DNA of 64,000 nucleotides from Gamsiella multidivaricata. Taxonomy: Eukaryota > Mortierellomycota > Mortierellomycetes > Mortierellales > Mortierellaceae. Every line of letters begins with the position of its first letter. Positions within the stretch are counted from its first letter, which is position 1. Shown here piece after piece: positions 8,084 to 16,002 of the stretch. The translations under genes and the position numbers were made by a program. The notes below the pieces were generated by a model, which was given only the letters and a program-made list of their open reading frames with translations, did not search any database and was not told where the DNA came from. The stretch covers positions 672,501 through 736,500 of the forward strand of contig NW_026251712.1 in assembly GCF_025024155.1 (NCBI RefSeq). Reading direction: 5' to 3'.

Positions 8084-9356
8084 ATGGGCGCTATCCAGAA
8101 CACACAGATCGTCTTGGCTGACAGACCTGTCGCTGATATTGATCCCAAGAAGACCTTCAGGATGCAAAAGGTGTCGCTCTCGGACGAGCTGGGATCCAAC
8201 GAGATTCTGGTCAAGGTCCTCTACGTCTCCCTCGATCCCGCCATGCGCGGTTGGATGCGCGACGTCCGCTCGTAAGTGTCATACGTTGCAATGAATACTC
8301 CTGCGTGTATCTGTGCTTTAATTGAGTTCAACGTCCAAGACTGACACGCCATGGCCCGGCAATAGATACATCCGCCCTGTGAGGATCGATGAGGTTATGC
8401 GCTCAGCCAATGTTGCCCAGGTCATCAAGTCAAACAACGCTGATTACAAGGTCGGCGAGCTCGTTCGTGCCACCTGCGGCTGGCAGGAGTATGCCGTCCT
8501 CAAGCCATCGGAGGATCTTGTTAAGATCAAGGCCTTCCCTGGAGTGTCTCCCTCGACCTACCTTGGCGTCTTGGGCCTGACTGGTTTGACAGCCTATTTT
8601 GGACTGTTCGAGGTGGGAGAGATTGCCAAGAAGGGTGGACCCAATTGCACCGTGGTTGTTTCTGGTGCCGCTGGTGCCACTGGATCGGTCGCTGCCCAGA
8701 TCGCTAAGCACGTCTTTGGATGCCGTGTTATTGGTATTGCTGGCTCAGATGATAAGTGCGATTACCTGGTCAAGGAGCTGGGATTGGATGTTGCCTTGAA
8801 CTACAAGTCCAAGTCATTCTTCAAGGAGCTGTGCGCTGCGACACCAAAGCTGATTGATATCTTTTTCGACAACACTGGTGGAGACATCTTGGACGCCTGC
8901 TTAAGACGCATTGCATTCAAGGGCCGTATCATCGTCTGCGGTGCGATCAGCACGTACAACGATGCCACCCCCAAGGGACCAGGTTAGTGAAGACACGTTT
9001 CTTTGCGTTTGAGCAACTGAAGATCCAGACAAGAACGTCATGGGCGTATCATATAGCTGGCCTTATCACTGACCTTATCACTGACCCTTTTTCGATCGGA
9101 AACAGCATACTACAGCGCATTGATCACTCAGCGTGCAAGAATGGAAGGCTTTATTGTGTTTGATTACGCTAAACAATACGGCAAGGCAACCGAGGATATG
9201 TCCAAGTGGATCAAGGAGGGAAAGCTAAAGAGCCGCGAGACTGTTGTCCACGGTATCGAGAACGCACCTGATGCTCTTGTCAAGCTGTTCAAGGGCGATA
9301 ACACCGGCAAGATGCTGGTCAAGGTTGCCGAGGAGAGTACTAACAGCAAGCTGTAA
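8084..9356 (+). CDS. NADP-dependent alkenal/quinone reductase (MDR family)
   Basis: Zinc-free medium-chain reductase of the leukotriene B4 dehydrogenase/alkenal double-bond reductase group, which reduces the C=C of reactive enals with NADPH in the cytosol. Three exons, 8084-8271, 8366-8982 and 9106-9356, join in phase to 351 aa. The N-terminal GroES-like part contains LYVSLDPAMRGWMRD, typical of this family. The nucleotide fold has VVSGAAGATGSVAAQIAK, followed by IGIAGSDDKC and LGLDVALNYKS. Then come FFDNTGGDILDACL, ARMEGFIVFDY and the usual C-terminal half. ATG context is AAAATCATGG. Convergent with the decayed transposon gene that ends 117 bp downstream. Confidence 0.93.
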
Positions 9357-9472
9357 AAACAAAAAAATAAGGGTGTCCTTATGTTCCCCAAATAAAATAA
9401 TACCAATACGTCATATAAAAACAGTTCCCGAAAATTTGTTAGCAAAGTTTAAACCCGCTGATTGTTGAGTCG

Positions 9473-10450
9473 CTAGGACCATATCGGCTGGCCGTTGGAG
9501 TCCAAAGGCTGAAGTTCAGCAGGTCGTATACCCTTGAAAAGCCTATACTGGGCAGCTCGCACCATGTTTTGTGCAGCCATGCTGTCGCGGAGGAAAGGCG
9601 TCTGGCAGGCTAATCAATACGTGCTACGCATATTCACCCGTCCAACAAACCCATGGTCGCATTTTCTACTTGGACCAACAGGGCTATTGAACGGGCACTT
9701 TTGCGACGCGTAGTATTCGTTGATACCGACCACCGCATGACCCCTGGTCCTGAACTGTAAGGACAGGATAATTTGCGACTCGATTAGATTGTGTTTGCCT
9801 GTCAATAGGGCCACAAAACATAGCGTTATATCAATGCTCTTACCGCTGAAATCAACTTGGCGCTGAATGTGCCGTGCAGCGAAGTCAACCCGGACGAGGT
9901 GCCGAACTTGCCGAGACCCACAATCCACAGCACCTTGTTAGCTAGAATGGCTTCCTTCTGGTTGTCTTTCTTCACCAATTTGAGAATAGCCTCGATAGCG
10001 ATTCGGTCCACCGCACCCCTCGCTTTTTTCAGATCCCAAGTGTCGCGACGATGCCGGAACGATTGGTTGTAGTGCTCGTTCAACACCTGTCTGTTTTTAT
10101 CCATTGAGTTCAAGGACAACCGAGCGTCCTCATCAGGAACACCTCTTCTCGGCAATAGTGAATTCTCGGCATCATGGATCTCGTCGGTCTTGCGCCCTTC
10201 GATAGCTCTGCGGTACTTGAACTGAGGCTGCATCAAGGCCTTTTGCTTGATATTGAGAGTTCGGTACTTCCCTGTCGGTGGCCAAGGTAGTGTTCCATCC
10301 GACAAGGGGGGATCAGGGATAAAACACTGACGGCTGCTGTGACCACCTGGCCCAGGTCAATGCCACCAATGCAGACATCCTTACCGTCACTACACAAAGG
10401 GAAATATAGAATGAGTGTTTGATATTCTAGTCCTTGAAAAGACTACCTTC

Positions 10451-10484
<34 letters not shown>

Positions 10485-13336
10485 TGCCTGCCAAACGTGT
10501 CCTGGAGTTCCTTTGTCGATCCAGAGAACTCGTTCCTAATCTCTTTCAACCACCGATCGGTTCCCATCTTGGGGTCAACTCGGCCAGGAACGGGATTTGA
10601 GGGCTTGTACTCCTTTGTGACACGCGTGTCGCAGGCTAGCAACCGCAGCTGGAGTCCGTCCGTCTGGAACGTGTCTGTGAGCACGTACCGCTTCGTGTAT
10701 TGGTACACGTGGCCTTTGGGTTCAGGCTTGATGACCTCGATCTTGGAGAAGTAGCCCTCTTTCCTATTGAGGGGACATATTACGTTGCAAAAGAACTCGC
10801 CGGGCACCATTCTTCCAAAAGTAGCCTCAAGTTCGCTCAGTTTGTACTTCTTGGTTGAGTCCATTGTTAAAGCTCCTAAAACGTCCTCGCGGAAGCTATC
10901 GTGGATAGAGTGGAACAACTCTCGCTCCGTTATAGTTATGAAACCATGGCGGATCGGCGAGATAAAGGCTGCAACTGGACGTTTGGCTACATCCACCAGT
11001 TCTCGAAGGTGGAGAAATCGGACAAGAAGACTCTCCTTGGGAAGTGTCCTCTCATCGAAGAAACGTACATCGCCTTCATAGCGCTTCTTAAGCTTTGCAA
11101 TGAAGATGCAAATGACAATACAGGTAGATTAACAAGCGTTCAAGGAGGAAGAGAGGAGGAAGAGAGGAGGAAGAGAGGAGGAAGAAAAGAGGAAGCAAGG
11201 CTTACCTGTTTGATCATTTGTTCCCAGAGCATGGTAAAGCCCTTTGCCATTTCCTGGGCCAGTGGTGCAAGAAAATAAGAAGTGGCCATCCAACTGTCGG
11301 GTCGTACGGCTTTAGCGTGCTTGGCTATGTACATGTCGTGCGCCTCTCGTGCTAGTTTGGCCACAACAGTAAATGCTAACCTCTTGAGGGAGCTACAGAA
11401 TCGGGACAGAAGAGTTTTCAAAAACCCCTCCAGCGTGGTGGCTGCCTTCCCGCGTACGCACTTGTCCTTGAATAGGTTGATGAACTTTTTTCTGAGATTC
11501 TTGCCATCGTCATCGCTCGAACTCTTAGATAGAAGATCCAGTAACGCAAATTGCGCATCCCGCTTCCCATTGTTCCAAAAATCGGCAATTCTGCATATGA
11601 TGTTAGTGATCCTTTGAGGCTTCGTTGTGATACTGGCGCCTCGAGCAGGGGGACTGGCCGCGTGGGCGAGCATGATGTTTCGTCTTAGCGAACCGACATG
11701 GAGAGACCTTAACGGATGAAACTTCATATGAGCTCGCTTAGCAACATCTCGGTCTGACCGCGTCGCTTCCTCTTTCTGCTCAGTGGTCTCCTTTTCATCC
11801 TCCGCAGCCGCATTCTTAGCAACCTCTTTCGTTTCTTCCATTTCCTGCCCTTTCGCCTTTTCCTTGGTTACCGTCCTGTACGTCCTTTGGCTCAACTGAA
11901 CAAAGGCCCCTATCTCCGCAGGAGTAACACGTTTTGGGCTCTGTGGCACGGTCTTGTACTGGTATCGAGGTTGATGGGGCTTATCTGGCGTCCAAGCAAC
12001 TGACCGCAGGCTTTCCAGAATGCTCTTCGCCTTGCCCTTCGCTTGTGCCTTGGGAGGTTCGACTGTTCGGAACTTGTTGAACATTTGATGCTTCTTGTAG
12101 CGGATGGGATGGTCATCCATAGTCCTTTTGGCGTTTAGCAAAATCAAAGAACATTGACAACTTGTTAATACAAATGCACACAAACGCGGTATCATTGTGA
12201 TACAGTGGTGTAGGAATAAAAGCTGCTATGTATGTACCTTTTCAGAACTTGTTTCGATTCTCGCAGCTGCTTTTGCCATTGCCGGTAATTGAATTTGAGG
12301 GCCAAGAACGATTGTCACAAGCTCTTGAAACCCTTGTACAAATTATCGTCTCGCGGGACGTCGTCAGATCGCGTCTGCTTCCTATTAACAAAGACTCTGG
12401 GTGGAGCTTCAAAGTCCGTGTTTTTTTGGTTTGAGCGCGCGACATCATCATGGCCCAAGTACTTCTGGACCATATCGCGAATATCATCTACAATTTTTTT
12501 TAAAAAAAAAGAGGCGGGATTGGAAGGACTTGTCACACTTCAGTTCCAATAACTAGACGTGGCATTCATCCTTACAAGACCAAGGAATGTCCCTTATTAC
12601 TGCCAGGTTCGATATGGCTCCAAGACCAAAGATATTCTTGCTGTAGTCATTGTTGGACACGATACCGAGCACCGTGAGTCCAGAGCGTCCAATTTCCAAG
12701 TACTTGCCAACTTCGAAAAGATTGTAGACCAAGAACCGGCCCCGAGAGATGGGTCTCCAGACAGTTTCCACAGTTGGATAGATCAACATGTCGCTGTCTC
12801 CTGAAACAATAATGTCACCTGTGCGGCACCAATTTGCAATATCCACGTCTGCCTCGAATGGAAAAACCTTCACCCTCCAACCCTTGGAAACTAGGAATTG
12901 TTGCAACTCCTGCCTGCCCTCGTAGGTCAAAGTCATTGTCTTTTGAAAGGCCCTCCTTCTGTTTGGATGGCCACTTGTCCTGCCTGCTGCCGATGTGTTT
13001 CTCGATGGACGAGTAGGACTCTCTTGCTTTCAACAAAGCATCTTTGGCAATCTTTAGACGCTTGAGGTGAGTCGCCCTCTCCTCTAAGGCTTGACGCCCA
13101 TCCAGATAGATGGTAATGTTGTTTAGACCGGGGAAGAGCCTCAGTAGTGCTCGCTGGATGGCTTCATGCGCCTTCTCTGTGTCTTCGTATGTGCAAAAGG
13201 CCGACCGAATTTGCACAAAGAGACAGGCGAACAGATCCAGGTGATATGTAACCTTTAGCTTGCTGTAGTCTGCTATCGCGATACCAGGCTCGAACTTTTT
13301 CTTTTCCAAGACGCTCCACAGCCCTACTACGCCCAT
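9473..13336 (-). pseudogene. FEN1/XPG-like nuclease fused to TnpB/Fanzor-like RuvC nuclease (decayed)
   Basis: Six exons can be chained: 13336-12576, 12487-12238, 12124-11206, 11092-10488, 10389-9844, 9754-9473, about 1,120 codons. The first part is a PIN/FEN fold: MGVVGLWSVL start, Asp34 in YHLDLF, Asp79 in IYLDG, then FEADVDIA, SGDSDML and SNNDYSKNI, covering every FEN acidic cluster. A Lys/Glu-rich linker and an all-helical middle follow. The last part has RuvC-I GGIDLG (Asp at 10358), INEYYASQKCP (Glu at 9718, the shifted Fanzor-type position; the usual RuvC-II site reads VGLGKF), a zinc-ribbon and RuvC-III RDSMAAQNM (Asp at 9586). Lesions: 1-nt frameshifts at about 12951 and in the G6 run 10306-10311, TGA at 12317-12315, and TGA at 9616-9614 where a zinc-ribbon Cys is expected. 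The fourth intron is GC-AG and holds A31. No inverted ends were found. Confidence 0.72.
11143..11186. repeat. 11-bp tandem repeat (AGGAGGAAGAG) in an intron of the FEN1-RuvC gene
   Basis: Four units in a row, lying in the intron between 11206 and 11092 (minus strand). Confidence 0.85.
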
Positions 13337-14254
13337 GGTTACTACAAGTAGGGGTGTGGTAGGGGAGGATTTTAGTACGGGAGAGTTTTAGTATTGGCAA
13401 GTAGGAAATATGCTCTGGCATGCTAGTTCTAGGACATTTGCATACATAGCTTTCCTCGAGGCGTATAGGTGTATTTGGGGGTGGATATATGTGTTGTGTG
13501 TGTGTGAGAGAGAGAGAGTGGGTGAGTGAGCGAGAGAGGGTATAAGTTGTGCTGTGCGTGTGGAAGAGAGGGAAGAGTCTGTTTGTTCATCCAACCCCCT
13601 GACGATGTGGAAACGCGTTGTGTGGTAAACAAAACCCGCTGTGCGCACAAACAAAACCAGTAAGGCAAACAACATGACCTGAACTGCCAAGAGCAATATT
13701 GTGGAAATTGCCCTGATCAATATCAATGGCATCCTCTCTTTCATTGGATGGAAATTGTCGACTATCATGCCCCTGCTGACCTTAATAGCTTAAGATCCAA
13801 AAGTTGCAAAACGACGCGTCTAAGTAGACAAGTAAACTCCTAGACATAGTTGCACTTGAGCTCTCCTGCATGCATACAGAGAGTAACAGACAGAGTGAGG
13901 AAGAGGGGGATGGTGAAAGAGACAACGAGAAAAAACATCCAGGATGGTACATGCTCGCCCACTAACACCGCCCACGCATGCCATATCCTCGTATCCACAT
14001 CACACAGGCACACACTTCTCCTTGCCGCACATCACATCCGAGTCCAACTCAATTGGCCCAGCTATGAACTGCCTGCAACTGGACGACGCGTTAAAAGCCA
14101 ATGGTAGGTCAATTGAGAGCCTACCTCTCCTGAACTCGTTCGCAATCGCCTCATTCTTTTCCAGTCGATATTATAACTAGTTACATGCCCTAATGGCTCA
14201 TTATGGGTTTGGAGTTGAGTGAGCAACTTGACTCAATCGAAATGACAATAACAG
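13337..14254. other. Spacer between two decayed mobile-element genes
   Basis: Holds a TG/AG microsatellite at about 13490-13530 and ordinary unique sequence. Terminal repeats that would bound either element were not found. A frame reading off the microsatellite is not taken as a gene. Confidence 0.5.
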
Positions 14255-15797
14255 GTATTTTATTTCATTCAACATTGCCGTGCATGCTTGTTACTGCAGC
14301 CATGGGAAGATACAACTGCAATAAAGGTGTCGCGTAGCCCATGTGTCCTTTGTCAAAGCATCTAGAGCCTCCACCCTTGGGTGCGGCACGTTCTTTATCC
14401 ATAAGATTTGTAAATGTTAGTGACAAAGGTAATTGGTAATATTACAGGGGACTTACCCACAAGCATGGTGAATCCCGTCAAAACAGAAAACATCCCCCCA
14501 CTTTCGCAGCTCATTCAGCTGCCATGGCGATGAAAATCCATGATAGAGGCCATGTTCCGATCGTAATAGGTGAAGTAATTTTGGTTCTCAAGGTCCTCCA
14601 TCCAAAGCCGAGCAGAAATGAGTGGGTCGTCATCCTTTCTCATTTGTTTAGCAGTCAACGCATACAGAAGGTTATAGACGTCGTCGTAGGTGATGAAGTC
14701 GTCCCTGGAGAGTCGTTGGTTGTCGCCACCCTCCATTAAACGAGTAAACCTTGCATAGTCGATTGTTAACTGGTTCATAATAACGGAGATCGACATTCCC
14801 CTCATAAGCAAATCTTTAATCCTTTCTCTCATGACCTTGGACTTTTGCTGAGTGCCAATGTTGCCTTTGTCGCCCAGAGTGTGTATGTGCTGGTAATTGT
14901 ATTCGATGCGGTAAGTTTCTCCTACTATGCCATCGCGTGTTTGTAGTGGACAATATATGGTAAAATAGGACGAGCATCCACATTTATTCGAAGCAAGTCT
15001 CAGTCTGGTCTTCCCAGACTTTCCGCCTGGCTGCCTACCCTTGACCATGTATTCACACCTCTGCGATGACAGTCATAGCGTGTCTTGATCTGACTGGCCC
15101 TCTCCTTCTTGGCCTCGGAACTGCTGGCGAAGACCTTGGTGGTATAAGCGTGTGGGCGCTCATGTTGGGTGAAAGCGGTTCCAATGCTGATCTGGTGCCG
15201 TGCCTTCCAGTCTGCGAAAAAGCTAGCCCTGAGGTAGAATACCAGTCGATTTCGCTTATCTTGCGTAAATACCCGATCCTCTGGGATCCCACACGCATGG
15301 GCAGTTTCTATAATGTACGGATCAGAGAACAGGGAATCTCTCACGGCGTCTCGAACATGCTCTTGAAGGCTCGACTCAAGGTGCACTCTTCTTTTTTCTA
15401 TCCTTTCGATATCGGCAGGACTGGCCTCAGGGGCGTTGTTGCGAGTAGGTGTGCCGCCATCATCATCCTCATCTCCATCGATACTGACAAGGTCGTCTTC
15501 GTAATCCACTTCGTGGTCGTGGTCTTCGTTGTCACGTATGCCCTCACCAAAGGGTTCATGGCTCAAGGTAACATTGCCGTCCTTGTCAGTCATGTGAATT
15601 TCAGCCAAACGTTGTACCTGGATGTGCAATTGTCGAGAAAAACATGTAGGTGTCTAGTCGGAACAGGGCAAACCGCTATCTGCTGCGTGTGTTGCACATC
15701 TTACTAGGGCGTCTGCGAGGGCTACCAATGTCTGATCCATGTTCTCATCGACCTGGCTCTGAGATGAGGTTGACTGGTTCACGTCCGGGATGTTCAT
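14255..15797 (-). pseudogene. FAR1-type MULE transposase relic, internally deleted
   Basis: Exon 1 is 15797-15705 (MNIPDVNQSTSSQSQVDEN), joined through a 51-nt intron to an exon starting at 15653. This carries an acidic stretch and then a FAR1/WRKY-GCM1-like DNA-binding zinc cluster (RYDCHRRG, NKCGCSSYF, later YNYQHIHT). A MULE-type helical segment follows, with ITYDDVYNLLYAL and ending WQLNELRKWGDVFCFDG then IHHAC. The frame needs two single-base corrections, near 15018 (GGG run) and near 14537 (TTTT run). Where the DDE core should continue there is a donor-like GTAAGT (14456), then only about 140 bp resembling a C-terminal SWIM finger (YCSCIFPWL, QACTAM, with a TAA inside, 14293-14291). This suggests loss of the catalytic core. 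Starts 205 bp from the divergent AsnRS gene. Confidence 0.65.
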
Positions 15798-16002
15798 AGC
15801 GTGTTGTTGATTGCAAGCGGTGCGTTGTCGCGGTAGTTGTAGGATAAAGAGTGAAGGATATCGCGACGGAGGTGGTCAGTGTTTAGTCGTGAGTCAGTGA
15901 TCACGTGTGGGATCGAAGCTCCAACAAGCAGATAAAAAACAAAACACTTTCCTTGCTTCTCTTCCTTATCTCACATATTCATACTCCTCTCCCATCACCA
16001 CC

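Follow-up and report, generated by a model that had tools for sequence, protein, structure and literature searches.

Can one gene on a fungal transposon encode both a FEN-type 5' nuclease and an RNA-guided nuclease of the Fanzor kind, and what would such a protein do for its carrier? This question is posed by positions 9473-13336, minus strand, of a 64,000-nucleotide stretch of Gamsiella multidivaricata DNA (contig NW_026251712.1, positions 672,501 to 736,500), which we call the window (G000:C115:672501-736500) and which we followed up within the 37.5-Mb, 180-contig genome of the same fungus. Here, an initial annotation had proposed that a FEN1/XPG-like and a TnpB/Fanzor-like nuclease are joined in a single gene, and single-chain proteins, genomic linkage and staggered open frames now uphold that proposal. 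Fanzors are eukaryotic RNA-guided nucleases, cousins of the CRISPR nucleases, and their service to transposons is unsettled. That the family described below combines an N-terminal FEN1/EXO1/XPG-type 5' nuclease, a basic linker and a Fanzor1-type (TnpB/Cas12-like) RuvC nuclease in one protein is as good as certain. Moreover, we show that the FEN-Fanzor gene rides MULE-type DNA transposons of Mortierellaceae fungi, among which the window copy is a decayed six-exon pseudogene, non-functional as it stands.

The window copy was read as six exons chained in phase from an ATG at 13336 to a TAG at 9473, with borders set by eye. Its introns are GT-AG, with the exception of intron 4, for which a GC donor gives the best reading (also by eye). 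The pieces are as follows.

12576-13336, minus strand: exon 1, N-terminal FEN/XPG-like nuclease with MGVVGLW, HLDLF, YLDG, FEAD, SGDSDML and NNDYSKN; one frame break.
12238-12487, minus strand: exon 2, last part of the FEN/H2TH region with the conserved V..YL...V..N...F...RVFV, from translation and alignment columns; one in-frame stop.
11206-12124, minus strand: exon 3, basic linker with a region predicted to be helical (FNKFRTVEPP ... HPLRSLHVGSL), matching conserved alignment columns.
10488-11092, minus strand: exon 4, Fanzor part ahead of RuvC (KRYVLTDTFQTDGLQLRLLA ... WLKEIRNEF).
9844-10389, minus strand: exon 5, RuvC-I (GGIDLGQ) and the region after it, from translation and catalytic columns; one frame break.
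9473-9754, minus strand: exon 6, RuvC-II with shifted Glu (INEYYASQKC), damaged zinc ribbon and RuvC-III (RDSMAAQNM).
9475-9473, minus strand: stop codon TAG of exon 6, with a further in-frame stop inside the exon.

When the pieces were aligned back onto the copy by tblastn, exactly four lesions were found, the number that had been annotated for the six in-phase exons: exons 1 and 5 each have a frame break, and exons 2 and 6 each an in-frame stop. With its pieces read one by one, the copy retains all seven FEN-type carboxylates (7/7), whose columns we take to match those of human FEN1, together with the RuvC D, E and D at aligned columns. The annotated conservation of every FEN acidic cluster, and a RuvC order with the shifted Glu (seen as VGVNEYYTSKKC in the relative P0004), are both borne out by this. 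The in-frame stop in exon 6 takes the third zinc-cysteine position, and the fourth cysteine, present in the window sequence, shows as a gap in the alignment because the aligned window piece is without the five residues after that stop. Pfam recognised single window pieces weakly and below cut-off (XPG_I_2, E = 0.006; Cas12f1-like TNB, E = 0.054), so that it is through the scores of relatives that the FEN-Fanzor identity is secure. Searching the own genome with exon 4 returned 11 matches, three of them weak at 27% identity.

To collect these relatives, a query from a younger copy in the same genome (on contig C93) was scored against the 7,990 proteins sharing most words with it, and returned 23 proteins from genera that are presumably all Mortierellaceae. 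The profile of these 23, scored likewise against 7,992 candidates, returned 16 proteins, 12 of which were new, with two of these from metagenomes. We then read 14 catalytic and zinc columns across the 35 proteins, many of which are partial models, and the window copy. Six FEN acids occur in one chain with the RuvC-I Asp in 16 of the 35 (821-1,358 aa), and the two halves are accordingly not always separate genes. All 14 residues are present in four proteins from three genera (P0002, P0004, P0026 and P0028; 1,174-1,254 aa), 13 of the 14 in P0024, and all except the first FEN Asp in P0001 and P0003. Of the four, P0004 belongs to Mortierella sp. GBAus27b, P0026 to Linnemannia hyalina and P0028 to Benniella. 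The RuvC D, E and D were found in ten proteins (P0001-P0004, P0007, P0012, P0024, P0026, P0028 and P0029), and the remaining 25 have no residue at the RuvC Glu and last-Asp columns. Between the linker and the Fanzor half, a region at about residues 435-640 of P0004 carries a conserved WEHP..TL.VGTL.AN, is predicted to be helical and is mostly confident in the structural model; no Pfam match was obtained for it.

Two of the relatives have features of their own. The P0007 model (Haplosporangium gracile) starts, by eye, with a short SWIM-finger-like stretch ahead of the FEN half, as if the end of a neighbouring transposase had been merged into the gene model. P0147, from the Mucorales fungus Apophysomyces sp. 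BC1021 and thus outside the Mortierellaceae, is a 251-aa Fanzor fragment with 53% identity to the query half, and its presence there reflects either horizontal transfer or contamination. Among viral contigs, alignment A2 gave no conserved patterns, and the P0004 query gave 11 pattern matches, none of which was a relative.

Could gene finders simply have merged two neighbouring genes, one for a FEN-like protein and the other for a Fanzor? A few observations fit such a merger. An intron comes after the FEN core in the window family, and read-through into it meets a stop within a few codons; FEN motifs occur with no RuvC columns in P0014, P0016, P0020-P0023, P0030-P0033 and P0035; and models of the Fanzor half only are frequent among the best 120 of 256 protein matches. 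However, the open frames are staggered between subfamilies, and cover P0004 residues 1-289 (at locus L060), 303-590, 336-641 and 593-1049, which leaves the 13 residues 290-302 as the only stretch that no individual matched frame crosses. Moreover, the linker is conserved across the aligned full-length members. On the staggered frames and the single-chain models we reject two adjacent genes, and regard a merger as very improbable.

The two halves also stay together in the genome of the window. Here, 90 FEN matches merged into 85 loci, and within 8 kb downstream on the same strand 51 of these have a TNB match, at a FEN-to-TNB distance of 2.7-3.4 kb in 43 of the 51. The controls gave three on the opposite strand and three upstream, and since uniform random placement would give about one linkage, the association is not due to chance. 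Among the 34 unlinked loci are the window copy, whose zinc ribbon is too decayed to count, a host XPG gene, as well as C97:119456 and C118:14425, which both have a RuvC piece downstream (39 of 531 candidates were scored in the RuvC-piece search). As for C16:78608, which had been considered as an intact intron-free fusion, we rejected it and regard it as an XPG-type gene of the host on account of its XPG_I match (E = 1e-26) and the lack of a recognisable Fanzor part in its lone listed open reading frame of at least 200 aa. In 18 sequences with both halves, out of 36, the pairwise distances of the FEN and Fanzor halves gave a rank correlation of 0.63 (153 pairs), a value reached in none of 2,000 permutations. 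The halves, then, diverge together.

We identified the FEN half by both profile and fold. In the Protein Data Bank (PDB), the family profile matched FEN-1 (1a76, E = 6.5e-7) and Rad2 (E = 5e-6), and 16 of the 23 family members matched an archaeal FEN-1 model at E <= 0.01. With Pfam, P0004 lies just under the XPG_I cut-off (E = 3e-4; 21.6 versus 24.9), and five transposon copies of the own genome lie just over it (25.5-26.6 bits). The AlphaFold2 model of P0004 (1186 aa; mean predicted local distance difference test (pLDDT) score of 68, predicted template modelling score (pTM) of 0.45) has a pLDDT of mostly 85-93 in the FEN half and lower values elsewhere. Its Foldseek matches in the PDB included EXO1 (9smo, E = 4.9e-8, template modelling (TM) score to target 0.59) and FEN1 (3q8k, E = 8.7e-8, 0.57), and the H2TH of the FEN half was seen as helices at the right place only. 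These profile and fold matches rule out FEN-like motifs arising by chance.

Moreover, the pairs that could be used show purifying selection on the FEN half. The ratio of nonsynonymous to synonymous substitution rates (dN/dS) was 0.09-0.38, with a median of 0.27, among 25 of the 30 FEN loci from the own-genome search; only 10 of 300 pairs had a usable dS (0.1-1.5), and these share sequences and are not independent. Known Fanzors cut DNA with no FEN half, and so the latter might be a DNA-binding or structural module devoid of catalysis; with purifying selection on this half, and its six acids kept beside the RuvC-I Asp in nearly half of the relatives, we find that quite improbable. PMC10432273 deals with Fanzors of the kind that lack this half. 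Taking together linkage, staggered frames, co-divergence and purifying selection, we conclude from these sequence comparisons that FEN-Fanzor is probably an old fusion that has been maintained.

For the Fanzor half, TNB was matched in 6 of the 23 members, with P0004 over the cut-off (E = 1.9e-11). P0004 also fits, as counted by eye, the Fanzor motif D-X(125,275)-[TS]-[TS]-X-X-C4-X(5,50)-RD that is given by Bao and Jurka (PMC3627910). We modelled in addition P0041, a protein of the Fanzor half, from 47 sequences (mean pLDDT 73, pTM 0.58; RuvC mostly 85-96). SpuFz was the top PDB match in both Foldseek searches (1.1e-8 for P0004 and 2.1e-8 for P0041), and a Foldseek alignment of a relative, which supports the assignment of exon 4, spans 531 columns of SpuFz. 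The first eight solved structures matched by P0041 were SpuFz, Cas12f, GtFz, Cas12h, Cas12o and PpFz entries, all Fanzor or Cas12, and a mimivirus Fanzor2 is within the first nine. A RuvC fold in the C-terminal part, as annotated, is therefore retained, and the structural check of each half that had been suggested with the annotation led to solved Fanzors on one side and to FEN1 and EXO1 on the other. In the BFVD database, many of the matches are giant-virus proteins labelled as transposase.

What carries this gene? While the gene stood as annotated, its limits of 9473 and 13336 do not enclose the whole feature, which continues on both sides and holds the remnants of a second gene.

9371-15888, minus strand: whole mobile element, with the 3' end fixed at about 9371 and the 5' end at 15888 or slightly beyond.
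14515-15653, minus strand: remnant of a gene upstream of the fusion, similar to the N-terminal portion of the C93 transposase, from open reading frames and tblastn.
9371-9472, minus strand: tail of about 100 nt from stop codon to element end, with a shared end motif; candidate position of an omega-RNA, although it folds no better than shuffles.

At the 3' end, six copies stop at the same AAGGACAC motif, and their flanks differ beyond it. The upstream remnant matches the C93 transposase over 52 aa at 27% identity (E = 1e-5 when only one sequence was searched), and no Pfam match that counts was found for it.

The better-preserved C93 element (C93:971941 to about 979890; loci L073 and L079) carries, besides the fusion gene, a transposase transcribed divergently from it, in which Pfam recognises a SWIM finger above the cut-off and, below it, a MULE domain (E = 0.001). 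Nine further copies of this young subfamily (L074-L078 and L080-L083) match C93 at 92-99% over the stretches fetched, and since several contigs end inside copies, the copy number is underestimated. By eye, a 9-bp target duplication was found at C131, one of two elements with both ends compared, and a shared run of 13 bp at C93, which includes 9 bp if the ends are as in C131. No clear terminal inverted repeats were seen at the ends of the window or C93 elements; MULEs devoid of these exist. In a wider survey, 59 matches to the C-terminal part of the transposase merged into 52 loci, and these were compared with the TNB places and five added RuvC places. A FEN or RuvC piece lies within 8.5 kb of 22 of the 52, and of these transposases 18 are divergent and upstream, one is in tandem, and three are opposite and downstream.

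The frequent divergent neighbour, in 18 of 22, is consistent with another role, in which the FEN half would serve MULE transposition itself, at flaps or gaps at the element ends or target duplications, and the fusion to Fanzor would mark a shared accessory status only. Target duplications do need gap filling and flap handling. However, the fusion partner of FEN is the Fanzor, not the transposase, and the two halves have diverged together. Moreover, the text covered of Bao and Jurka on the MuDr-type Fanzor1 elements of Rhizopus, Phycomyces and Mucor, which have 9-bp target duplications, describes the N-terminal halves as highly variable and has no mention of a FEN domain, though one could be missed in such variable N-termini (PMC3627910). 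On balance, we consider this role rather unlikely.

As to the tail, the stop codon lies about 100 nt before the end of the element in the window family; the corresponding lengths are 196 nt for subfamily B and 96 nt for subfamily C. Known Fanzor1 omega-RNAs measure 75, 90 and 150 nt (PMC11423790); two of the three tails lie within this range, and their place is as expected. A conserved omega-RNA-like block, for which the initial annotation had advised a search, did not emerge: among five tail folds, the one of subfamily C was alone in being clearly better than shuffles (z = -3.0), and the others gave -1.3 (subfamily B, whole), +0.35 (its first 93 nt), and +1.6 and +1.0 (window family, no better than shuffles). 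Rfam gave no match on the window at gathering score.

Another possibility is that the FEN half acts on the guide RNA or on the R-loop, by trimming a 5' RNA or DNA flap, and not on cut DNA ends. FEN and XPG enzymes act on branched nucleic acids and an RNA-guided enzyme makes an R-loop, which would suit such a role. Nevertheless, no omega-RNA was demonstrated by tail folding, and the solved Fanzors (590-726 residues) work without a FEN domain. We hold it to be improbable.

The mechanism that we favour instead joins an RNA-guided cut to the processing of its 5' ends. As membership in the family would suggest, the Fanzor half may be guided by an RNA from the 3' end of its gene and the adjoining flank, and would cut element-free copies of the site, such as the donor site after excision by the MULE transposase. 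At this break, the FEN half would trim or resect the 5' ends or the displaced strand, and repair, then biased to recombination with an occupied copy, would restore or spread the transposon. The FEN half keeps an MG..GLW start, and hence a free N-terminus as in FEN1. In FEN1, the N-terminus is located at the active site, and a similar placement would explain why the FEN domain is first in the chain. In this sense, the protein could be a natural programmable nuclease with two active sites, an RNA-guided RuvC and a FEN/EXO1-type 5' nuclease, forming a self-contained cut-and-resect machine. We offer the mechanism by analogy and tentatively, and the machine likewise as a possibility short of an even chance. 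Taken together, architecture and mechanism have in our estimate a probability of roughly 0.6.

Several observations weigh against this joint reading. In the own genome, 30 of the 34 unlinked FEN loci are unexplained, and a single FEN query found nothing upstream of 58 of 109 TNB matches, of which some are contig ends or deletion derivatives. Two copies, C132 at about 218946-222400 and C63 at about 12100-15000 (L043 and L044), are FEN-less and share a deletion that takes out the entire FEN half together with exons 2-3 and a portion of exon 4 (compared with window positions 10929-14026). These are an amplified FEN-less derivative of the element, and FEN-less Fanzors may be present in this genome. 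The window copy and the three sisters with all exons (C68, C136 and C158; 91-94% identical to it over the second FEN piece) are all broken, and with these sisters lost the window family looks dead. The TM-scores of P0041 to solved Fanzors are low (0.24-0.36), which makes the Fanzor half a distant member. With respect to the carrier, the transposase remnant in the window is on the strand of the fusion gene and not divergent, neither a FEN nor a RuvC piece lies near 30 of the 52 transposase loci, and 4 of the 22 neighbours depart from the divergent order. Finally, no structure is common to the 3' tails in the five folds from three families.

Around the window element, the neighbours are a plus-strand oxidoreductase-like gene and a plus-strand tRNA-synthetase-like gene (both named by eye), and at 9354-9371 the element end lies about 20 bp or less from the stop codon of the former. 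Elsewhere, C107:67767-68203 and C107:77072-77508 are short, internally deleted copies of the 5' part of the window element, inverted and about 9 kb apart.

The family is large and little-noticed. Its members bear public names such as 'hypothetical', 'Cas12f1-like TNB domain-containing', 'XPG-I domain-containing' and 'Rad2 nuclease', and since these cite TNB or XPG-I/Rad2, the databases do hold the parts. In the titles and abstract starts of the open-licence PMC papers that the searches listed, a FEN/XPG-Fanzor fusion is undescribed; subscription papers, bioRxiv and the key Fanzor survey lie outside this search. With both catalytic sets kept, a FEN-type domain fused to a Fanzor suggests that handling of DNA ends or R-loops after the cut belongs to the natural job of the protein, and the role of each half becomes testable through single-residue mutants. 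FEN-Fanzor also provides a natural model for the nuclease-exonuclease fusions that are engineered to steer repair in genome editing.

Compared with known systems, the family shares with FEN1, EXO1 and XPG (Rad2) the N-terminal MG..GLW, similarity to XPG_I, seven carboxylates and predicted helices after these. It differs in being transposon-borne, fused to a Fanzor, and too diverged to be placed with any one of the three, and the own genome holds four other XPG_I loci that are far stronger than the transposon copies. Like MULE/MuDR transposons, the element has a SWIM-finger transposase, a MULE match (below cut-off) and target duplications; its differences are a FEN-Fanzor gene placed next to the transposase in divergent orientation and, at C93, the lack of a clear terminal inverted repeat. 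Fanzor1 proteins are described in eukaryotic transposons, MuDr-type ones in Mucoromycetes included (PMC3627910), and the solved fungal PpFz1 has instead an FRI insertion binding cyclophilin (PMC11423790). With Fanzor1 (SpuFz1, GtFz1 and PpFz1), the family has in common the RuvC D-E-D, the shifted Glu beside the zinc ribbon, TNB, the fold and carriage by transposons. In contrast to the 590-726 residues of solved Fanzor chains, its most complete models have 1,174-1,254, and what it adds is an N-terminal FEN/XPG nuclease and a long basic linker.

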